35,378 bases of DNA. It comes from Acidobacteriota bacterium (GTDB taxonomy: Bacteria > Acidobacteriota > Terriglobia > Terriglobales > Acidobacteriaceae). Both the position numbers and the translations under genes were made by a program. The stretch lies in assembly GCA_003225055.1 (NCBI GenBank), contig QIAU01000098.1, positions 1-35,378 of the forward strand. Reading direction: 5' to 3'. The notes below the pieces were generated by a model. That model worked only from the letters and a program-made list of their open reading frames with translations. It did not search any database and had not been told where the DNA came from. Shown here piece by piece: positions 18,751 to 34,881 of this stretch (positions are counted from its first letter, which is position 1; each line of letters starts with the position of its first letter).

Positions 18751-20351
18751 GGATTACCGGCTTCGCCAAACTGGGGTGTGCCTGTTTGGTTCTGCTCGCT
18801 GTGGGTGTTGTGGCCATCAATGCTTGCGCACAGGTTACTTTCGTCCGGATCGTAAATTCTGCAAAGGAACCTCAAAACTGGCTTACCTATTCGGGGGATT
18901 ACGCTGGCCATCGCTTCAGTTCGCTCGATCAGATCAACACCTCGACCGTCCACTCCCTGGTGGTGAAGTGGGTCTATCAAACAGGCGCAACCGGGAAGTT
19001 CGAAACCACACCGCTTGTCGTGGACGGGATCCTTTACGGAACCGGCCCGGAAAACCGTGTCTTCGCGCTCGACGCGCATACCGGCCGCCCCATCTGGCTC
19101 TACCAGCGCCAACTACCAGCCGATATTCGCCCCTGTTGTGGCCGCGTCAATCGCGGTGTCGCCATCCTGGGAGACAAAGTCTTTTTCGGCACGCTTGACG
19201 CTCACGTGATGGCTCTCGACGCTAAGACCGGTAATGTTATTTGGGACGTCAACGCTGTCGACTATAAGAATGGCTATAGCTTTACCCCCGCACCATTGGC
19301 GGTAAAGAACCTCATCGTCCTCGGTGTTTCTGGGGGTGAGTACGGCATCCGCGGTTTCATTGATGCCTACGATGCCGACACCGGCCAGCGAAAATGGCGC
19401 TTCTACACAGTGCCCGGACCCGGCGAGCCCGGCCACGACACCTGGGAAGGCGATTCCTGGAAGATTGGCGGGGCGCCTGCCTGGATTACCGGTACCTACG
19501 ATCCCGAAACCAATCAATTGTTCTGGCCAACCGGCAATCCTTCGCCTTCTAATCGTGGTGAAGGCCGCGTCGGTGACAACTTGTACAGCAATACGCTTCT
19601 TGCTCTTGACGCCGACACGGGAAAGCTTAGCTGGCACTTCCAATTTACCCGCCACGATGAGCACGATTGGGACTCGACTCAGGTGCCGGTGATGATCGAT
19701 GAGGGAGCGAGGCACCTGATCGCCCAAGCCAACCGCAATGGCTTCTTCTACATGGTGGACCGGACGAGCGGCAAACTGCTATTGGCGAATCCGTACGGTA
19801 AAGTCACTTGGAGTGACAGCAAGGACGCCGAGGGCCGTCCGGTCGCGGCCAAGGAAAGTTCGCCGACTCCGGAGGGACGGCGCGTTTGTCCTGGCGCCGC
19901 CGGCACGACCAATTGGATGTCCCCCACCTTCGATTCGCAGACTGGACTGTTTTATGTGAACGCCCGCGAGCAGTGCGACATATTCAGCACCGCGCCGCAG
20001 CCCTATGAAGCCGGACATGCCTACTACGGCAGCGCTTATTTCCCCGCCGATGACACTGAGCCCTACTGGGGCGCTCTCCGCGCCATCGATCCTGCCACAG
20101 GAAAAATTAAGTGGGAATTTCCCCACCCCTCGCCTTCCTGGTCCGGCGTCTTGTCGACCGCTGGAGGGCTTGTGTTCACCGGGGACGCCGAGGGCAATTT
20201 CATCGCACTGGACGCGGCTTCCGGCAAGCCGCTGTGGCACTTTCAAACCGGCGGAGCGGTTTACGCGGCGCCGATAACCTTCGCCCTGGATCGAAAGCAG
20301 TATATCGCCATTGCCGCGGGAAGCTCTCTATACACATTTAGTCTTCCCTAA
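18747..20351 (+). CDS. PQQ-dependent dehydrogenase (eight-bladed quinoprotein, alcohol/sugar type)
   Basis: A 534-residue exported propeller enzyme, intact, with a signal peptide at about residues 8-28. Landmarks in order: NWLTYSGDYAGHRFSSLDQIN, CCGRVNRG (vicinal cysteines over PQQ), tryptophan-docking repeats such as ALDAKTGNVIW, ALDADTGKLSW and AIDPATGKIKW, GDSWKIGGAPAW, and RHDEHDWDS, which carries the catalytic aspartate region. It lacks a fused haem domain and instead is coupled to the di-haem cytochrome c upstream (ATGA overlap). It is the only intact PQQ user in the window and probably the consumer of the pqqABCDE product. The substrate is not predictable. Its 3' end overlaps the convergent VWFA pseudogene by 24 bp. 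Confidence 0.93.
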   Translation: MRITGFAKLGCACLVLLAVGVVAINACAQVTFVRIVNSAKEPQNWLTYSGDYAGHRFSSLDQINTSTVHSLVVKWVYQTGATGKFETTPLVVDGILYGTGPENRVFALDAHTGRPIWLYQRQLPADIRPCCGRVNRGVAILGDKVFFGTLDAHVMALDAKTGNVIWDVNAVDYKNGYSFTPAPLAVKNLIVLGVSGGEYGIRGFIDAYDADTGQRKWRFYTVPGPGEPGHDTWEGDSWKIGGAPAWITGTYDPETNQLFWPTGNPSPSNRGEGRVGDNLYSNTLLALDADTGKLSWHFQFTRHDEHDWDSTQVPVMIDEGARHLIAQANRNGFFYMVDRTSGKLLLANPYGKVTWSDSKDAEGRPVAAKESSPTPEGRRVCPGAAGTTNWMSPTFDSQTGLFYVNAREQCDIFSTAPQPYEAGHAYYGSAYFPADDTEPYWGALRAIDPATGKIKWEFPHPSPSWSGVLSTAGGLVFTGDAEGNFIALDAASGKPLWHFQTGGAVYAAPITFALDRKQYIAIAAGSSLYTFSLP

Positions 20352-21277
20352 GGCTGCCTTGAATTCGGCAGGCGTGTACCCGAGGACGTACTGGCTACGA
20401 AGAGATTTCTCGATGCTTGTGAAGGCGAGATTGATTTCTGAATGCTCATGCGCTGGCAGAATGCTACCTCCCGTGGCACGGCTCAATATTTCCAGGACAG
20501 CTTCCCCGCGCGGGTACTGGGAGTTGCGTTTCACTTTGTTGGTGCTAAGAGCAAACAAAACGCTATCAGCCCGGAGTGCCGCCTGCTCTGCGTTGTAAGG
20601 GATGGCATGGTGCCTAGTATCCTCGCCATCGGTGATAGGGACAATTACGCGGCGGGTGACGGAGGATTCCGTATGGGACGCAATTTTTCAGCGGCGAAAA
20701 CGATGGCATCGTATAGTGCGGTGTCTCCGCCCGGCTTGAGCACTTTTAACGATTCCCGCAGGGCTAGGACGTTGTCCGTGAAGTCGTGGAGCAGGTGAAC
20801 TTCATCATTGAAGGCTACGAGGAAGGCTTGGTCCACTCCGGGGCGGAGCATCTTCTTCAGAAAAACGTCGGCCGCTTTTTTTTCGAAACCAAACCGCCCC
20901 GTGATGGAAGAGCCTGCGTCAATTAGCAGAGCGATTTGTAAGGGTAACGAACTCTGCTGCTGGAAATAGCGGATTTTTTCCGGCGGCCGATGATTGTCAA
21001 ACAATAGAAAGTCCGCCGAAGAGAGATCACCTCGTAAACGCCTTTTGGAATCAGTTACGGTGAATACAAGATTGACTTCATCCACCTGCTTGGTGATGCA
21101 GAATGAGGGCTCCTCCAGGGACGTGGCAGCATGGCCTGTGAGAGGGACGCCTCCGGCGGTTAGATACTCCTGTGCAAGGGCGATAGCAAGCAGGGTTAAT
21201 CCCCGCAAGAAACATGAGAGGGGCGCGCGCAATCTGAAGCCTCCATGGGTGCGCAAGATCTCGGGCACTGCCCCCAC
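20328..21277 (-). pseudogene. Acidobacterial VWFA-related domain protein, frameshifted
   Basis: The 5' part (21277 down to 20645) encodes a hydrophobic N-terminus, VNLVFTVTDSKRRLRGDL and a von Willebrand A core with ALLIDAGSSITGRF, AFLVAFNDEV, and TALYDAIVFAAEKL. It then runs out of frame. If one A is added to the five-A run (plus-strand T5 at 20684-20688), translation continues as AAEKIASHTESSVTRRVIVP, ITDGEDTRHHAIPY, and on through the second open part to SLRSQYVLGYTPAEF. The C-terminal strand and the ARPGYY-like end expected for the family are absent, and the frame stops inside the convergent quinoprotein gene. So there is one 1-nt lesion at a homopolymer plus 3' truncation. Sequencing error or slippage at the run is possible. 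Confidence 0.8.
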
Positions 21278-21602
21278 GATTGGACCGAAATTGTAGACGG
21301 GTTTACTGGCCTCGCCAAAAGTTTCTTTGCGGTGCCTTTGCTAAGGAGTCAGAGGGAAGGGTACGTTCGCTCAAATTCGACCCAATCCAAGGCGATAGGC
21401 TTGGTTACCTGACCTTTCGCCCGCGAAAAGTCTATTCTTTTGCCCTACAAAGCTCCGAAGTTGGACCTGGTAAGAGGGTCGCAAAACTGCTCGTGACAGG
21501 ATGGGTGACTAAGCAAGGGTTCGAGATCGAGATCCTTCCGAGGTGACGGTAGTAACCTGAATATTGCCGTTTCCTCATGATACGCTTCCGCTCAGTAATC
21601 CC
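21278..21602. other. Divergent intergenic region
   Basis: About 325 nt between the start of the VWFA pseudogene and the TPR gene. An open frame on the plus strand (21280-21546) has no ribosome site or family resemblance. No repeats or clear promoter boxes were seen. Confidence 0.4.
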
Positions 21603-26546: not shown

Positions 26547-29500
26547 ATGAAATCTCCTCTATACGTGACGGCAAATGTCCTTCTGGCGTTCCTCTGTATC
26601 AGCTCCTGTTTCCCCCGCCCGTTGTGGGGAATGCCTCCCGCTATTGCGTCACAGGCGTCGGAAGCGGAGTCCCCGGTGGCAACCGCGACCATACCAGGCC
26701 CCTTGGCCTCCTTCCTGCGTATGGCGGCTATCAGTCAGAAGGTATCGCCTGAGGAAGTGCTGCCGCTTTTGGCGCGCAACGCGGCCATGCAGGGTTATGC
26801 GGGCTGGCATCAAAATCCTCAGGGCGTGACTGAATTTCTGGTGCTGTTGAGGCGATATGTCCAGCAGGCAAGAGCATTGCAGGTGCTGGCCGGTCCAGAG
26901 GCCGTCATTCGTGTCTCCGGTTGCGCCGACGCCGGGGTCCTGCTCAAGGTACTAGGCTATCGTTTTCGGCGAGACTGTGGACAAGACACCATCTTGGATA
27001 CTGCCGACGCTGAAAGGGCCTTTCTGACAATCGACTCGGGATTCCCGCTGGTTGACCTGGAGGACAGCCTTCGGCGAGGCCAGCCCTTCACCTACTCGTT
27101 TCCTCAGTCGCGGGTGCCTCTTCTTTTCAAGAACCTCAGCCAGTTGGCTACAAAGGCAAGCAGCACAAAAAGCAAAGATCCCATTGACTTGCTGCTGCAT
27201 GATCCCGCTCTGGCGCGCTTTTATTGGGCAGCGTCACGGATGGATCCCGACACCAGAATCGCCTTAGAAAAATCGTCGGGATTGAAAAAGCTCATACCGT
27301 TTGCAGCCGTGCTGGATTTTTACGGCAGCTACATTTATATGCGATCGGGACGAATCGTGGTTCCCGGAGGACCGACGGCAGAACCCGCCTGGAGGAACCT
27401 GGTGGGAGCGAGTCCAGATGTGCCCACTGAGTTTGTAGCGCGCTTACTGGCCAAGGATCAGGGCTGGCTGGCCGCCTATTTTGACGCCCTTTCCCGCGCG
27501 GGCCGCACGCAGCAGGCTTACTTCACTGATCCTCGCCGGCTGCCGCTTTTTTACTCAGCGCTCCGCGGGCAGAGCCAGGAACCGAACGCTTACCGACCCA
27601 TATTCAGGCCCAATCCCGGGCTGTTGCTGCTGGTCACCAGCCTCCACTGGGAACCGAATGGCGAACCCACTGTTCCCGGGAATCTGGAGCTGTGGAAACA
27701 AATCCTTCGCCAGAAGGGCTATGCGAAAATCGTTCGCTATTGGGCTAAAAGAACAGATTGCTGCAACAGCCCTGACCAGTTGGTCGCAACCATGTTTGGT
27801 CTTTCCCGTCTGGATACTGAACATGGGCCCCTGGAACTCTATCTCTCGTTGAGCGAGCTCGACGCCGAGCGTTCCGCCTCGCAACGGCTCACTCCCCAGA
27901 CTGTCCGCCTGCTGGCCAGCAAGTTCGAGCAATTCAGCAATCAATTTCTGATTTTTTCCGAATTCCCCGACTTAAACGATGCTTCCATCCAGCGGTTTGT
28001 TGAGGTACTCGAGGCCGTGGACCGAATTCCCAATCTCACCATGCGCGGAAACGCAATGGGGATCCTTGAAAGCACTGTCGGTCTGTGGCAAATCCTGGCG
28101 CGGCAGGGACAGATTCCGAATCCAATGCTGAATGAGTCCTGGCAGCGTCTCATTAGCCCCTTTGGCAAGAATCTGTCGGCCGCTCAGCTCTTCGACACAA
28201 GCCGTGATTCACTCCGCGAAGTTCTGAAGGCTGCGACCGGCAAACCTGATGGCTCGCAGGACGAAATCATAGATCTCCTGGCAGGTCCACCTCAAACGAC
28301 TCCCGCGGGACAGCAGGTGCACCGCGACGTGGCCAACAAAATAGGGTCCGTCCTGGATGGGCAACGCCTGGTTTCCCTCGACACCTTATTGGCTCTCGGT
28401 GAGGGCTTGAATGCAGTGGCACAGGGGAAGGCGGAGGATAGCAGTCTGCTTCCATTGGCGGCCGAGTTGCAGGAATTCGAAATGCCACAGCCGATTTTCA
28501 AAAGCAGGGAACGGTCGGAATGGGCGCCAGGGATTTACAACAACCGCCATACGGAATTGCAGATGCGGACCGATTTGACGAAGTTGATCAAATCCCAGTT
28601 CTCCCCTGCCAGATTGGCGGAGGCCCGTGGCCAGCTCGTCCCCTTCGTGCGAGACACGTTGGTGGGCCTCAACTATGCCTATTATGAGCCGCCGGGTTCT
28701 GAGATTCTTCACAATAACCCTCTCTTCGTCCGGTCTCATGATTTCTCGGGCGAGACCGTTCTCGGGTACAAGCTAGTGTGGCAGGCGCCGGAGTTGTTTG
28801 GGGCCGGCGCCGCGGCGGGGGGTGGTGTCCATCTAGTAGGTTCTCTTTCCGATCTGCCTTACGTTCTTGCGGTTGCGGAGGAGGACTTTATCGCTCCGGA
28901 AAATGTGCAGGCCCTTATCTGGAAAGAAATGGTACCCTGGCTTCTGACCAGCGCCATCTTGCCCCGATGGTGGAATGTCACTGGGACCGAGCTTCACGCG
29001 GTTGCGCTTTACCAGCAGGCCGGAGAGGACCTTCTAGCCGCCGCCCAGCAGGATGAGAAGCTGCGACACAACTTGCTTGATATTCTATCCGAGCGTATGG
29101 CCCCCCAAAGGCTTTCACGCCTGGAGACAGCCTTGAGCACGGGGCATCTGAAAGATATGCTTCCTGGCATCATGCCGTCAGAAACGGTTTTTCTCACCGC
29201 TGAATTCAGCCAGAGATTCCCCGGAAATATGGAATTATGGGGCACAGCCGGCAAAGAACTCCAAGACTTGTCCGTGCACCACCCCGCCGAGGTGACCTGG
29301 CAGCGTTTGTCGCAGGATTTCGGTGTGCCGCATCCTGTGCTAGCGCGGAGCTACAAACCGGAATTGCTGAATTTAAAACCTTTCCCCTCCTTCTCGGGCT
29401 ACTCCAGCCGTTTGTTGGCTGAGTCCTGGGATTCCACCAATTTATACTGGGCTCGTTTAATCGATGAAAAGGGTTACCCGCCGGTGGTGCTGAACCGTCT

Positions 29501-29669
29501 CGTACCCGAACTTACCCATCGCATGATCGCAAGGATCTTCGCCACCGACTTGGAGGATTGGCCGGCAGTCCTTCGCGCCATGCGAGAAACCGGGGAGGAA
29601 TTTCGTCTGGGCAAAATTGCACCTCTACAAGTTAGTGACACGGCGTCCCTGACGGAGAAATCCCATTGA
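26547..29669 (+). CDS. Large secreted protein of unknown function (1040 residues)
   Basis: I do not recognise a named domain. The N-terminus is an export signal (hydrophobic residues about 5-20, with an ISSC lipobox-like motif at 18-21, so it may be a lipoprotein). The mature protein is largely helical and rich in tryptophan, leucine and proline. Cysteines near 126, 139, 400 and 401 are few enough to form specific disulfides. Segments such as LLHDPALARFYWAASRMDP, FYSALRG and PVPGNLELWKQIL-like repeats recur loosely about every 100 residues (compare FPGNMELWG near 895), hinting at an internal helical repeat. Downstream, after 52 nt on the same strand, lies a VWFA-domain protein; the two probably form an operon. 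The gene is long and intact, so it is surely expressed protein, but its role is unknown. Confidence 0.8.
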   Translation: MKSPLYVTANVLLAFLCISSCFPRPLWGMPPAIASQASEAESPVATATIPGPLASFLRMAAISQKVSPEEVLPLLARNAAMQGYAGWHQNPQGVTEFLVLLRRYVQQARALQVLAGPEAVIRVSGCADAGVLLKVLGYRFRRDCGQDTILDTADAERAFLTIDSGFPLVDLEDSLRRGQPFTYSFPQSRVPLLFKNLSQLATKASSTKSKDPIDLLLHDPALARFYWAASRMDPDTRIALEKSSGLKKLIPFAAVLDFYGSYIYMRSGRIVVPGGPTAEPAWRNLVGASPDVPTEFVARLLAKDQGWLAAYFDALSRAGRTQQAYFTDPRRLPLFYSALRGQSQEPNAYRPIFRPNPGLLLLVTSLHWEPNGEPTVPGNLELWKQILRQKGYAKIVRYWAKRTDCCNSPDQLVATMFGLSRLDTEHGPLELYLSLSELDAERSASQRLTPQTVRLLASKFEQFSNQFLIFSEFPDLNDASIQRFVEVLEAVDRIPNLTMRGNAMGILESTVGLWQILARQGQIPNPMLNESWQRLISPFGKNLSAAQLFDTSRDSLREVLKAATGKPDGSQDEIIDLLAGPPQTTPAGQQVHRDVANKIGSVLDGQRLVSLDTLLALGEGLNAVAQGKAEDSSLLPLAAELQEFEMPQPIFKSRERSEWAPGIYNNRHTELQMRTDLTKLIKSQFSPARLAEARGQLVPFVRDTLVGLNYAYYEPPGSEILHNNPLFVRSHDFSGETVLGYKLVWQAPELFGAGAAAGGGVHLVGSLSDLPYVLAVAEEDFIAPENVQALIWKEMVPWLLTSAILPRWWNVTGTELHAVALYQQAGEDLLAAAQQDEKLRHNLLDILSERMAPQRLSRLETALSTGHLKDMLPGIMPSETVFLTAEFSQRFPGNMELWGTAGKELQDLSVHHPAEVTWQRLSQDFGVPHPVLARSYKPELLNLKPFPSFSGYSSRLLAESWDSTNLYWARLIDEKGYPPVVLNRLVPELTHRMIARIFATDLEDWPAVLRAMRETGEEFRLGKIAPLQVSDTASLTEKSH

Positions 29670-29721
29670 GGAAGGACGCGAGATTCTGAGCAGCTCGTGA
29701 GCAGGACCGCGTGTAAAAGTT

Positions 29722-30798
29722 ATGCTAAAACGGCATCTACTTCTTTCATTCTGCTGCTCCTTGCTGGTTCTGTCCGTTGCTCCTGAAACTCGGACGGCGG
29801 CCCAGGAAACTGAGTCCCACATTCAGGTGGTTGTGAACCTCGTTCAGTTGAATGTGGCGGTGACGGACAGTAAGGGCAATTATGTCACCGGCCTACGTCC
29901 TCAGGACTTCGCGATTACCGAGGATGGTATTCCCGAAAGAATCGCCACCTTCGCCGAGGGAAACGAACCTACTCGCAGTCTCGTGGACACGGCGCGGCCG
30001 GAGAGTAAATCCCCCAATACGCAAGAAGGCTCGGTAGCTGGTGCGTCGGCAAAGGACCCGCCTGAAACACTCGGCTCACTGGTTGCGGGCGCCAATGTAT
30101 TCGTCCTGTTTGACACCAGCAATTACATGTACCGGCAGTTTGTCTTTGCACAAGACGCAATTGTCGACTTTGTCCGATCTCTGGAAACCGCGGATCAGAT
30201 TGCTTTCTACTCCTACAGCCGTGATCTCTCTCGCTCCGCACTTCTTACGCGGGATCGTTCTCAGGTTTTGCACGGGGTGCGCGCCACGGTCGCTGGAGAT
30301 GACGCGGCGCTCTACAACGCCCTCCTCATGACGGTGAAGGATGCCAGCCTGCATACGGGAAAGAAAGTCATTGTGGTCTTCTCCAACGGGCCAGACAACG
30401 CCAGCGCGGTGCCCCCCGAAGATGTGGCTGAGTTAGCCCAGTCCACCGGGACGTCTGTCTACATGATCAGTACCCAGCAAGCGAGGTTGGATCCTGTGTC
30501 GACCGCTGTCTTTGAGCGAATGACCGCCGCCACCGGAGGCAAAGCCTATTTCGCCAAAAACTGGAGGGATCAGCAAAAGGCATTTGCATCCATTCGGGAC
30601 GATCTGGCCCACCTTTACTTGCTCAGTTATTATCCCCAGCAGAATCCGAATCGTGGCTGGCGCACGATCCACGTGAAACTGCTAGGGGAACGCCTGAAGA
30701 AATTCCACGTTCGGACTCGAACCGGGTACCGGCCGCAACCCGCGCGATTCTCCGCAGGGAGCACGCCACCTTCAGCACCCGTCGCTGTGACAGAGTGA
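29722..30798 (+). CDS. Acidobacterial VWFA-related domain protein, secreted
   Basis: A 358-residue exported protein. The signal peptide is at about residues 5-27 (LLSFCCSLLVLSVAPETRTAAQ). Residues 33-80 form the family opener: VVVNLVQLNVAVTDSKGNYV, then LRPQDFAITEDGIPERI. The von Willebrand A domain (about 125-310) has FVLFDTSNYM at D131, a weakened metal-binding site compared with the usual D-x-S-x-S, then ALYNALLMTVKDAS, VIVVFSNGPDN and TGGKAYFAKNW. The end, LAHLYLLSYYPQQNPNRGWR with VRTRTGYRP, closes the family domain. These proteins are numerous in acidobacteria and of unknown function, probably adhesive. It follows the 1040-residue protein by 52 nt. Confidence 0.9.
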   Translation: MLKRHLLLSFCCSLLVLSVAPETRTAAQETESHIQVVVNLVQLNVAVTDSKGNYVTGLRPQDFAITEDGIPERIATFAEGNEPTRSLVDTARPESKSPNTQEGSVAGASAKDPPETLGSLVAGANVFVLFDTSNYMYRQFVFAQDAIVDFVRSLETADQIAFYSYSRDLSRSALLTRDRSQVLHGVRATVAGDDAALYNALLMTVKDASLHTGKKVIVVFSNGPDNASAVPPEDVAELAQSTGTSVYMISTQQARLDPVSTAVFERMTAATGGKAYFAKNWRDQQKAFASIRDDLAHLYLLSYYPQQNPNRGWRTIHVKLLGERLKKFHVRTRTGYRPQPARFSAGSTPPSAPVAVTE

Positions 30799-31490
30799 CA
30801 GGTGGTGCCGCAGCGGATGAGCGCTTCTCCCCAATCGGTTCCACGCCTTCTGCCGCCCCATGTCTGCACTGGTATGATTGTTCCACGACTGACCCCGACG
30901 TGGGCGTCCGCGCGCCAAAGTACAACGGCTGCAGCATCACTAGGACTGGTGTGAAGCGCTGCCAATTTCCCAATGGTGCCACATCGGTTCTTCGCTGAAA
31001 ACTGCGTTCCGCAGCTCGGGCTAGTCCTGACGGATGGTTTGAAGACCGCAAACATGTTATACCCCTGCATGCGAAAGCGTGTACTCCTTGTCGTCCGCGA
31101 GAAGACCATTCATTCGAACGACTTTCAGGAGCTAGCGCCTTTTTCCGTTGTTCGAGTGGCCATTGCAGCTGAAATTCAGCCGCGTCAATCATCCCCGCCG
31201 CCAACCGAAGTTCTGAAGCTTTGACTGGCTCTGGACAGGAGAAAGGACTCCACATCCTTCAATGTGTTCAATGCACCGCGTAAACAGAAAGTGGTTCGCT
31301 TCTTCATTTACGATCCTCAGCTTTATTGACGTGTACATAAGTAATAAACAGTTGATGCAGAAATAATAGACATATCAGCTCCTCTTCTTCGGGATGATTC
31401 GAAGCATGAGACCGCAGGGAAGCCCCGGGCAGCTGGAACGACGGCGGCGGCGTGCGGTCAAGCGGTTCTTCCGTGCGGTCAAGCGGTTCT
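30799..31490. other. Gene-free, repeat-containing region
   Basis: About 690 nt between the VWFA gene and the transposase remnant. It contains copy 1 of a 73-bp repeat, an AT-rich patch at 31315-31380, and most of a 21-bp tandem duplication at its right end. Open frames here are short, lack family resemblance, or are run-ons from the repeats. Confidence 0.5.
30985..31057. repeat. 73-bp dispersed repeat, copy 1
   Basis: Matches 31484-31555 over its full length with a few substitutions and one indel, in the same orientation. On the minus strand the repeat opens with ATG encoding MFAVFKPSVRT, and AGGGG lies 6 nt before the ATG. Confidence 0.9.
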
Positions 31491-31493
31491 TCA
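31452..31493. repeat. 21-bp tandem duplication
   Basis: Two near-identical head-to-tail 21-bp units (31452-31472 and 31473-31493, core gtgcggtcaagcggttcttc). The second unit runs into copy 2 of the 73-bp repeat. The period equals that of the tandem repeat upstream of pilin copy 1. Confidence 0.85.
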
Positions 31494-31555
31494 CTGAAAA
31501 CTGCGTTCGCAGGTCGGGCCAGTCCTGACGGATGGTTTGAAGACCGCAAACATGT
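31484..31555. repeat. 73-bp dispersed repeat, copy 2 (72 bp)
   Basis: On the minus strand AGGAGG lies 6 nt before ATG, which starts a 20-codon open frame beginning MFAVFKPSVRT and ending at TGA. The decayed transposase frame reads straight into this repeat, so its C-terminus has been replaced by repeat sequence. Confidence 0.9.
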
Positions 31556-31559
31556 CAGA

Positions 31560-32946
31560 CCTCCTTCTCATGGCATCGTGAGAACGCGCCAGGTGTTCCC
31601 GGAGCAAAGAAACCAAACTGGTCTCGGCTCGATAGGCGATCATTTTGATGGTGTCGAGGAAGTGCTTGCGCTCGGTGCGCAGGCAGGTGAAGCGTTCTTC
31701 TTGGGGTAGGGATTGGATCGGAATATGATGCGCGGTCTGCTTGCGCTGCTGTTTGAGGTTATCGATCTCCACCTCCAGTTGCTGAATTTCTTCCTGCAGT
31801 TGTCCCTGGCGTTGTTCGTAGCTCCGCACTTCCGGTTCCGAAAGACCCTCGGATAAGGCCAAGGCGCCGAATTCGGCCCGCAGACGATAGCATTGTCCGG
31901 CCCTGGATCGGATCTGGCTGTCGAGCTGGCGCCACTGCGGATTGACCACTTCCGTTTCAGGAATCAGTTCGGTTCCGTACTCCACAAGCCGATCCAAACC
32001 ATAGTGTTCTCTCTCATAGCGAAAGAAATTTTCCTGCGACCATCGGGCAAAGAGCGACACAGCCAGCGCCCCGATCGAGGCCTGAAAGTTGGTGGTCGAC
32101 AAGCGCCGTCTGATGCCCGCTGGCGGTGAGCTTGCGAATTTCCCGTACCCAGAACTGGTTGGATAACTGCGTGCCGCGCTCGGACAGTTTCAGGGTCACG
32201 GCCTGGCCGCCCGCCAGTTGGACTCGATGGGCGGTGAACTGCTCCACCGGCCAATCTTCTTTGGGAAATTTGTGGTAGGTCAAAACGGCAATACGCTTTT
32301 CGAACAACTGCGCAAAGAATTCCGGGCTGTAGCCTTCGCGATCAAAGACTACGGTGAACCAATGGGCGCGGGGATCTTGCGCTAAGCGCTGCTCGATCTC
32401 CGTCTTCTGCGCGGTCTTCTCCGACCCACGGAATCACCTCCTTGCCCAGCGTGGTGATCAGACCATTCCTTGGCCAGTTGGGCATTCCAGGGCGCGTCCC
32501 AAGTCCTGACATAGCCGTTCGATTTTTTCCCGCAGCGTGCGCACTTCCGGAATGCGGTCCAGACCCAACACTTTGCCCCACTCGCCCGGGGCTTGATAAC
32601 GCAGTTGTTCCACCGAGCCAATGCAGGTCAGCGCCATCAGCGCCAGCAACAGAAAAATGCTGTCGATGCCGTAGAATCCTTTGGGTAATTGGTAGCTCTG
32701 TGGACGGTGGCGCAGCAGACCCTGCGCCAATAAGGCCGGTACGGCCAGCAACACACCGCCGGCAGCGACATCGCGGGTGCTTTCAAACTCAATCGGCGCC
32801 GACTCCAGTACTCCGATCGCCGCCGCCACCCGCTCCAAGGTCCGCGTCGTGGCGTATCCCATCGGCGCTTGACTGTCGCTCTGACTGCGTTCGCTTTTAT
32901 TGCTTAGCTCAACCGAGGGGTGGGCAGTTTTTTGAAGCTGCCGCAA
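31560..32946 (-). pseudogene. Decayed DDE-type transposase
   Basis: Pieces of one transposase lie in order on the minus strand. 32946 to about 32458 encodes the N-terminal part (GIDSIFLLLALMALTCIGSV, WGKVLGLDRIPEVRTLREKI, LCQD). After frame changes near 32480 comes WNAQLAKEW, then TLGKEVIPWV. Another frame change leads to HWFTVVFDREGYSPEFFAQL, with a likely catalytic aspartate, and on to LTYHKFPKEDWPVEQF. A last shift near 32100 leads to TNFQASIGALAVSLFARWSQ and FLDTIKMIAYRAETSLVSLL. The central third, between AKEW and EVIPWV, is missing, and the C-terminus stops where the 73-bp repeat begins. The family resembles large IS4/IS1634-like transposases, but I cannot name the IS. Confidence 0.8.
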
Positions 32947-33198: not shown

Positions 33199-34881
33199 CT
33201 ACAAGCTCTCCAGGAAGGCGGCCAAATCGAGTTTCTCCTGATTAGTTAGCCCGATGCTGAAACGGGCATTATAGAAGTCGATCAAAGCTCCGATATCGTT
33301 CGCCACCCCCGCGTGGAAGTACGGGGAACGCACCGCCAGGTTCCGCAGGATTGTTGGCCTGAACTTCCCCGCGTCGGCGATGTCGCCGCTCACCATCGCG
33401 CGGCCCGGGTCGGTTGTGATAATGTCGCCGGCGTCGCTGACGCCGCAGCCCGCCGCAAGCGAACCGGCTTTAGCCGTTACCCGATATAGAGGCAGCAACC
33501 GGACACGCTCAAGCATCTCCCGGAGCTCCGGATGGGGCGAGGTGTCGGTTGCGCAGATCCCGCCACCCCTGATTAGGTCCTTCAACATGGCAATCGAGTC
33601 GGTGCCGAGCCTGACAAAGAAGGCTCGGTCCACGTTGTTGCCTACATTGTGTTTCGAATGACATCCTTTGCAGTTCGTGGTGGTTCTCCCCAACTGCGCC
33701 TGCAGATCGGGGGGGACATGGAGCTCCTTGTTGTTGAAGATCTCCTGGCCACGTGCCACTGAGAGCCGGGCTGCATTTCCCGCGTTGGGAAGGTTCGCCC
33801 AGGCATCAAAAATGTCGAAACCTGGGACGTTGGGTACGCATGTGCCCGCACCCGACAGGTTCGAGGCCTGCGCCACGTTTGCAAGCGCGGGCACGTTACA
33901 GGGCACCGTGGGACCCAGCGAGAACTCCGACAGGTTTTCCACGCCACCCTTTGCCCCCTTTGCCGAAAGCCGCCCGGCTCCGTTAGGAAGCGCCGCCTCC
34001 CGGTCGAAGACCTGGTCGGTATATACCCCGAACTCAAACGCCCCTACCTCTTTGGCTTCGTCCACAGTCGGGGCCCGTCCGGCCAGCAGCATGGTACCGC
34101 CCGTCACCTGCCCCAGAATGTTCTCGATGTTGACCGCCCCGTCAAACAGCACTGCGCTCTCCTCATGCAGGTTGGTCGGCACGATCGGGCGGCGGAATGC
34201 CGAGATTGTCGGATTTCCGGCCGAACCTCCCGGAAAAAGCTCCATCTCGGGATCATTGGTCAACGGAAACACGCCGAACTCGTTGATTGTCCTCTGATTG
34301 GCGGCCGCGATCGTGAAATTGGATTCGGGCGCATAGCGCTTGGCGATGCGCGTCGCGCCCAGCAGCAGTAAGACGCTGTAGTTCTTCGCGTTTGGCGCGC
34401 CCACCGCTGGGTTGTTGGCAGTGTTTCGGAAGTGGAACAGTGGGTCCGTCCCGCCAGATTCGACGAACCTTCGTCTTATGTCCGCCACCTGAATACTAAA
34501 GCCCTGGTCCGGTTGGTGGCAGGTCGCGCATGACTGGCCAGTAGCACCAAGCCTCACATCGAAGAACTTGTTGCTACCATTGAGCGGAGCGTTGGGAACC
34601 GGGACCACGGTCCCGGTCACTGTCGTGACCTTCACATCCGACGCAGCGCTCTGGATGAAGCCGGTGTCGTCAGGGAAGAGCCGGAAGATCCCGATGCTGT
34701 CTTCCGAGTCTGAAGGCGCGGCAATCACCGCAATCCCGGCGGCACATACGGCGATGATGATGCTGGTAGCGAATGCCGCCACGCCCAAGGCGGCGGCCCT
34801 GATGTCTGCTCTGCGCAGAATGCCTTTCAATTGCACCTTGCCGGTGGCGACTACAGTTGAGAGTGGCATGGGTCTTTTCAT
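33199..34881 (-). CDS. Di-haem cytochrome c peroxidase-family protein
   Basis: A 560-residue exported cytochrome. AAAGGAG lies just upstream of the ATG at 34881. A hydrophobic segment at about residues 31-54 is an uncleaved anchor or a late signal peptide. The first haem motif is C118-x2-C121-H122 in ATGQSCATCHQPDQGF and the second is C404-x2-C407-H408 in TNCKGCHSKHNVG. The C-terminus SPYFHAGVANDIGALIDFYN, ending LTNQEKLDLAAFLESL, is standard for the cytochrome c peroxidase/MauG superfamily. Insertions between the haems make it longer than classical CcpA (about 330). It may reduce peroxide or oxidise an organic substrate in the periplasm. The promoter region holds a hairpin and a six-unit tandem array. 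Confidence 0.9.
   Translation of the reverse strand: MKRPMPLSTVVATGKVQLKGILRRADIRAAALGVAAFATSIIIAVCAAGIAVIAAPSDSEDSIGIFRLFPDDTGFIQSAASDVKVTTVTGTVVPVPNAPLNGSNKFFDVRLGATGQSCATCHQPDQGFSIQVADIRRRFVESGGTDPLFHFRNTANNPAVGAPNAKNYSVLLLLGATRIAKRYAPESNFTIAAANQRTINEFGVFPLTNDPEMELFPGGSAGNPTISAFRRPIVPTNLHEESAVLFDGAVNIENILGQVTGGTMLLAGRAPTVDEAKEVGAFEFGVYTDQVFDREAALPNGAGRLSAKGAKGGVENLSEFSLGPTVPCNVPALANVAQASNLSGAGTCVPNVPGFDIFDAWANLPNAGNAARLSVARGQEIFNNKELHVPPDLQAQLGRTTTNCKGCHSKHNVGNNVDRAFFVRLGTDSIAMLKDLIRGGGICATDTSPHPELREMLERVRLLPLYRVTAKAGSLAAGCGVSDAGDIITTDPGRAMVSGDIADAGKFRPTILRNLAVRSPYFHAGVANDIGALIDFYNARFSIGLTNQEKLDLAAFLESL

Follow-up and report, generated by a model that had tools for sequence, protein, structure and literature searches.

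A conserved gene pair of Acidobacteriota encoding a large, probably exported protein with PGG...W repeats and a VWFA partner

Acidobacteria are abundant soil bacteria, and their exported proteins are poorly known. The stretch of DNA analysed here, called the window in the following, comprises 35,378 nucleotides of contig QIAU01000098.1 (GenBank assembly GCA_003225055.1; Acidobacteriota, Acidobacteriaceae). It carries two adjacent genes on the plus strand, one for a large helical and probably exported protein of 1040 amino acids (aa) without a known family (26547–29669), termed the PGG-W protein or simply the large protein, and one for a 358-aa protein with an export-like start (29722–30798), which belongs to the von Willebrand factor type A (VWFA) family TIGR03436. 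The question raised by this locus is whether the two products belong together and what they may form. Very probably the two act jointly, in a system of which we found no description, and we lean slightly towards their being subunits of one exported complex, in which the VWFA protein would dock through its former metal face. In the literature searched, from which subscription journals were mostly absent and which was judged by title and the start of the abstract, neither a report on the pair nor a functional paper on TIGR03436 was found.

Conserved pairing, fusions and a third component

Both open reading frames (ORFs) listed in an initial annotation made from the sequence alone proved to be intact, with a gap of 52 nt between them, and the conserved pairing suspected there was found in Acidobacteriota genomes. 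Phylum searches with the large protein, whose profile was run on acidobacterial genomes only, led to 56 loci (L031–L070 and L207–L222), three of them cut by a contig end, leaving 53 informative ones. In 52 of these 53, a VWFA gene was adjacent or fused (47 downstream, 4 upstream, and 1 fused), and the sole informative locus without it holds a large-protein fragment of 174 aa. Some of the loci are near-identical (L031/L032 and L036/L040), genome G054 contributes two, and G069, with a frame of 173 aa, stands outside the set. Altogether, 88 loci seeded by the large protein revealed the VWFA gene downstream in 67, upstream in 4, and fused in 7 cases, with 3 loci cut and 7 without it; 32 of these loci (30 handles) were picked as diverse or outlying and are not random, fragment hits L191 and L192 were left out, and longer stretches stand in for L184–L190 and L193.

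Seeding with the VWFA protein gave the same picture, as a large gene, complete or in part, immediately precedes the VWFA gene in the same orientation in 79/80 loci, and the contig of the 80th starts inside the VWFA gene. These 80 loci are the best of 413 and were picked by patterns with the altered metal site, so that they bear on the pairing and are no evidence for the loss of that site. Two of them (L094 and L113) were scored as neighbour-less by our script due to a split large gene, the second piece of which is in fact directly upstream. Such a split into two overlapping frames beside the VWFA gene was observed in L094, L097, L107, and L113 and may represent a frameshift of the genome or of the assembly. 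The outcome set beforehand as speaking against the pairing, namely that the two genes are rarely neighbours in other genomes, thus did not appear in the neighbourhood survey. Since the window's own genome contains one large gene and 19 TIGR03436 matches, 17 of which are over the cut-off, chance adjacency would be rare.

Other neighbours of the pair vary, as 117 loci revealed 80 upstream and 87 downstream clusters, the commonest adjoining 5 and 6 pairs. A cluster of long proteins (1163 aa in L135), TonB-receptor-like by eye, occurred within four genes of the pair 29 times in mixed positions and on both strands, and we read it as a common gene rather than a partner.

In regard to its spread, relatives of the large protein were detected in 213 of the 399 genomes of the class (76/135 genera) by single-sequence search and in 57 of the 396 phylum genomes (31/211 genera) by profile search, with one match in the window's genome. 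A scan of contigs from 84,980 species with the alignment of close VWFA proteins resulted in 413 relatives, and the titles of the best 80 name groups known as acidobacterial. The window's family takes in Edaphobacter and Granulicella, and named strains of both carry the pair (L125–L127). The single-sequence contig scan with the large protein revealed no relative (13 pattern matches, none confirmed), and a plasmid search resulted in no match.

Apart from adjacency, natural fusions were identified. Seven ORFs (L052 and L199–L204) combine the core of the large protein with a C-terminal VWFA domain; that of L203 harbors tetratricopeptide repeats (TPRs) as well and its VWA domain is found by Pfam with E 6.9e-15. 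All seven group together in the VWFA tree (support 98), and three genomes (G430, G513, and G550) possess the two-gene pair plus one or two fused forms. The pair gives one TIGR03436 protein a fixed partner and a phylum-scale history with fusions, and these fusions may be taken as indirect support for a two-subunit complex.

The system is broader than the pair, as it includes the fused forms and, in distant lineages, often a further TIGR03436 protein as third component. According to our script, a second, usually larger protein of TIGR03436 type lies beside the pair or is fused to one of its members in 18 of the 40 pairs outside the window's clade. After correction by hand (L218 doubtful, L209 added, and L066 added based on a tblastn match downstream), the count is 19/40, which is a minimum because several loci are truncated at contig ends. 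The third-type gene of L068 lies on the opposite strand; the third component of L058 scores 113.8 bits against TIGR03436 and revealed TPR-like scores at its end. In L209, the third component is the C-terminal part of the large protein itself (97.5 bits), and the large protein of L212 likewise ends in a TIGR03436-like domain. No second VWFA gene was found beside any of the 115 pairs of the window's clade, 88 of which are followed by 1.5 kb or more of available sequence. A fixed third neighbour was considered for this clade as well and rejected (0/115 pairs); tblastn with five third-type proteins resulted in no match in 99 close loci.

Taken by itself, the adjacency is compatible with co-transcription for regulation only, the two products having no contact, and the gap of 52 nt contains no terminator-like site (3 sites in the region compared with 5.1 expected by chance). 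We consider this improbable, as contact is favoured by the seven natural fusions, by the third component fused to the large protein in family f31, and by the conserved former metal face of the VWFA protein described below.

The VWFA partner and its former metal site

The VWFA partner scored 152 bits (E 2.7e-44) against TIGR03436 acidobact_VWFA, for which the curated NCBI cut-off is 81.25, and it also passed Pfam VWA (E 1.4e-11). Its structural model had a predicted local distance difference test (pLDDT) value of 81.5 and displays a VWA fold, 602 of the 998 aligned chains reaching Z 8 or more. The best of these matches was 9pd4_E with Z 21.8 and 2.0 Å over 170 residues. Based on the matched range and on alignments, the VWA domain covers residues 123–300 (30088–30621, plus strand).

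In VWA domains with a metal ion-dependent adhesion site (MIDAS), the metal ligands are the DxSxS motif, a Thr and an Asp. The initial annotation had pointed to an altered metal site (DTSNYM), and the alteration goes further than noted there. According to the alignment, motif 1 (30112–30129) has lost DxSxS through an exchange of Ser for Tyr135, the Thr position is taken by Ala195 (30304–30306), and the Asp position of the third loop by Asn222 (FSNGPDN; 30385–30387), so that the five metal positions read D-S-Y-A-N and the MIDAS metal site is absent. Among 39 rows that entered the set via the large protein (the window, L031–L049, and L164–L182), the motif-1 Ser is replaced by Tyr or Phe and the third-loop Asp by Asn in all 39, while the Thr position holds Ala, Ser or Glu in 30 and keeps Thr in 9. 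By these alignments, the loss of the metal site is fixed across the window's clade, and the altered proteins form one clade in the VWFA tree (22/22 rows, support 100), a quick tree in which the metal-site columns were kept. The VWFAs of distant pairs need four changes in this tree, and therefore one origin of all pairs is not established.

Beyond this clade, all 20 distant loci in which the domain is complete keep D-[S/T]-S-T-D. Seven of eight paralogues of the window's own genome scored at all five positions keep DSSTD, the other being L162 (contig C80) with QGRAE. In the long paralogues L151, L152, L154, and L161, no DxSxS pattern is present at the corresponding alignment position. The 17 over-cut-off TIGR03436 matches of this genome are spread over 13 contigs, with three located within 4 kb on contig C114. 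Compared with TIGR03436 and Pfam VWA in general, the window's partner shares the fold and the score over the family cut-off, but differs in the metal site lost in its clade and in a gene tied to that of the large protein.

Though the ligands were lost, the three former metal loops revealed a conservation of 0.916 compared with 0.722 elsewhere in the domain (window permutation, p 0.0005, i.e., 0.05% of 20,000 random trials reach it). An earlier test on the motif-selected alignment A5 (p 0.0017) was not used. The former metal face is thus the best-conserved part of the VWA domain in the window's clade, and metal loss together with strong constraint on the loops therefore suggests a fixed protein-binding face. 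The VWFA proteins of this clade may thus offer a testable evolutionary switch from a metal-bearing to a metal-free form.

Metal-free VWA domains that bind proteins are known from p44 of TFIIH and from proteasomal Rpn10. Indeed, TFIIH-type entries lead the matches of the VWFA model (9pd4_E, see above), and 8jtl_A from an AtRpn10 complex reached Z 19.8. In contrast to the VWFA partner, these proteins are eukaryotic and intracellular, and identity was 11–12% for 9pd4_E and 8jtl_A. Since integrin I domains come within 2 Z of these matches, we see no specific kinship to TFIIH or Rpn10.

The occurrence of integrin I domains and pilus-tip VWA among the fold matches also raises the question of an adhesion or extracellular-matrix device, with the large protein as helical stalk or scaffold and the VWFA proteins as heads that bind ligands, with the help of metal in distant lineages and without it in the window's clade. 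The metal-site residues in the VWA domains of all 20 distant loci and the TPR and further VWFA modules of distant relatives would suit such a device. However, fold matches show no function, VWFA proteins of the window's clade would be deprived of classical ligand binding along with their metal site, and no neighbour cluster adjoins more than 6 of the 117 pairs, pilin and anchor genes not having been searched by name. We regard an adhesion device as unlikely.

A further comparison concerns the Bat aerotolerance gene set, which we take to consist of the VWA proteins BatA and BatB, the TPR proteins BatC and BatE, a MoxR ATPase, and BatD. In Bat, envelope VWA proteins work with TPR proteins. The window's VWFA protein has a weak VWA-domain score to NF047508 BatA (19.2 bits compared with a cut-off of 380). 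Differences lie in the surroundings, with no neighbour cluster beside more than 6/117 pairs in a survey that did not look for MoxR, BatB, and BatD by name, and in the large protein, which has neither an NCBIfam match nor a second hydrophobic stretch over 1.6.

Architecture of the large protein

In accordance with the export signal proposed in the initial annotation, the large protein begins with an N-terminal export-signal region, identified by hydropathy at about residues 1–35 (26547–26651, plus strand). Its best 19-residue hydropathy window within residues 1–45 has a value of 1.77, and no second hydrophobic stretch over 1.6 follows. Of the close orthologues, 100 include the N terminus, and 96 of these passed a simple rule (start codon, Lys or Arg, and a 12-residue hydrophobic core), compared with 28 of 3020 internal 40-mers, a rough control as several starts were tried per orthologue. 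These 100 orthologues replaced a test on alignment A4, whose figure of 41/43 is biased by row selection, since A4 contains only rows with a hydrophobic start and leaves out 18 large ORFs failing the rule. As the VWFA protein likewise starts with basic residues followed by a hydrophobic stretch, both proteins are likely exported. The periplasm, the outer membrane, and the outside of the cell are all compatible with such starts, the cell surface named in the initial annotation being one possibility among these, and we presume an envelope location.

As stated in the initial annotation, no domain of the large protein could be named. Pfam resulted in a single match below the cut-off (E 0.22, 12.6 bits compared with 22), NCBIfam in no match up to E 1, and PADLOC holds no family for it; sequence searches against the PDB revealed nothing meaningful. 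Scanning 30 homologues against Pfam led to five families with one member each (best E 0.006).

An AlphaFold2 model based on 43 sequences (mean pLDDT 81.1, predicted template modelling score 0.82) displays short strands in residues 46–191 and mostly helices elsewhere. Foldseek found no PDB entry with E up to 0.001 (best 0.15) and no match among the viral models of BFVD at this threshold, and a second structural aligner reached a best Z of 3.9 over 103 residues among 747 aligned chains. The fold searches used one query of 1040 residues, behind which single-domain matches may be hidden. Thus, neither the profile search nor the structure prediction proposed in the initial annotation yielded a known enzyme fold for this one model, so that the other outcome set beforehand as unfavourable did not appear either, and a new fold appears plausible, making the large protein a candidate for one.

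Conservation was analysed in 105 close and 48 distant rows. By profile comparison, the large protein carries three diverged PGG...W repeats, all on the plus strand. R1 (residues 45–76, 26679–26774) aligned to R2 with E 1.9e-6 (hhalign probability 89.6) and revealed Pro50 and Gly51 in 82% and 89% of the distant rows. R2 (residues 268–322, 27348–27512), with VPGG at 272–275 and Trp282, aligned to R3 with E 8.6e-8 (probability 94.4); its residues were kept in 47/47 (Pro273), 47/47 (Gly274), and 48/48 (Trp282) distant rows. R3 (residues 372–442, 27660–27872), with VPGNLELW at 376–383, showed Pro377 in 85% and Trp383 in 87% of these rows. R1 and R3 matched with E 4.9e-4 at a probability of only 32%, and the other 25 of the 28 pairs of alignment segments had E 0.027 or worse. 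The initial annotation had named two motifs as loose internal repeats. One of them, LELWKQIL (residues 380–387), does lie in R3 of this repeat, whereas MELWG (895–899) is no copy, with E 0.22 or worse against R1–R3.

The residues kept in every distant row having them are Pro273, Gly274, Trp282, Tyr710, and His731. The last two (28674–28739, plus strand) stand alone among the polar residues in being retained by all rows that cover them, each in 46/46 distant and 103/103 close rows. The large protein may be read as an exported enzyme using Tyr710 and His731, with the VWFA protein as its chaperone or substrate-presenting partner. We find this doubtful, however, as no enzyme family or fold matched the large protein in the libraries and fold searches run, one Tyr and one His define no known active site, and the other invariant residues, Pro, Gly, and Trp, suit a fold more than chemistry. 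Two further residues, Cys126 and Cys144 (26922–26978, plus strand), were found in 97/98 and 98/98 close rows covering them and may form a disulfide; their conservation is confined to the window's clade and does not extend to the distant rows.

The proposed complex and the surroundings of the locus

As subunits of one exported complex, old in Acidobacteriota, the two proteins would have different roles. The large protein would provide the body, in which an N-terminal segment with short strands is followed by a long helical array, and which holds the three repeats and a conserved site marked by Tyr710 and His731. As docking subunit, the VWFA protein would bind the large protein or a further partner via the face that normally holds the metal. 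In the window's clade, binding would probably be constitutive and metal-free, because the ligands are lost and yet no part of the domain is better conserved than this face. In other lineages, the VWFA subunit keeps its metal site, is sometimes fused to the body and often joined by the second, larger TIGR03436 protein.

Several observations weigh against such a complex. Conserved adjacency would, as mentioned, also fit co-regulation without contact. The gene order is reversed, with the VWFA gene first, in four f31 loci (L209, L210, L212, and L214). Loss of the metal site is also not unique to the VWFA of the pair, as seen in L162 and several long paralogues, and another hydrophobic 19-residue window was found in 4 of 43 aligned orthologues of the large protein. 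Moreover, long homologues of the large protein (1507–1784 aa) from five f93 genomes (L194–L198) and a sixth that belongs to the window's own family (L205) have no VWFA gene in the 13–16 kb examined per locus, so that a VWFA neighbour is not required for the body to be present. For the f93 proteins, a VWA domain concealed in the N terminus was suspected by eye but not supported (hhalign probability 0.3%; Pfam revealed TPRs and no VWA in L196 and L205), and the six loci are therefore counted as exceptions to the pairing. They may represent a stand-alone branch of the large-protein family, with TPR scores in both members scanned (L196 and L205).

The picture may be widened, though we put it forward tentatively and with less confidence than the exported complex itself. 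It would be an undescribed exported multi-protein system of Acidobacteriota, composed of a new-fold protein with PGG...W repeats and an invariant Tyr/His site and of dedicated VWFA subunits, either one or two. In the window's lineage, a binding head that depended on metal would have become a docking subunit free of it, and the system would do without the third component.

Further genes were observed in the window, all on the minus strand. A second TIGR03436 VWFA gene (20331–21340) is broken into two frames, scoring 83 bits at 20681–21094 and 45.9 bits at 20361–20687. A protein of the MauG/MbnH kind of di-haem cytochromes is encoded at 33199–34881, with 25.8 bits for CCP_MauG (cut-off 25.6) and a score below the cut-off for NCBIfam MbnH. 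Just downstream of the pair, a Transposase_29 fragment is located at 31491–32102 (Pfam E 1e-47, profile positions 321–498 of 562). Its ORF has the peptide MFAVFKPSVRT in common with the ORF at 30630–31109, which suggests a repeated element.

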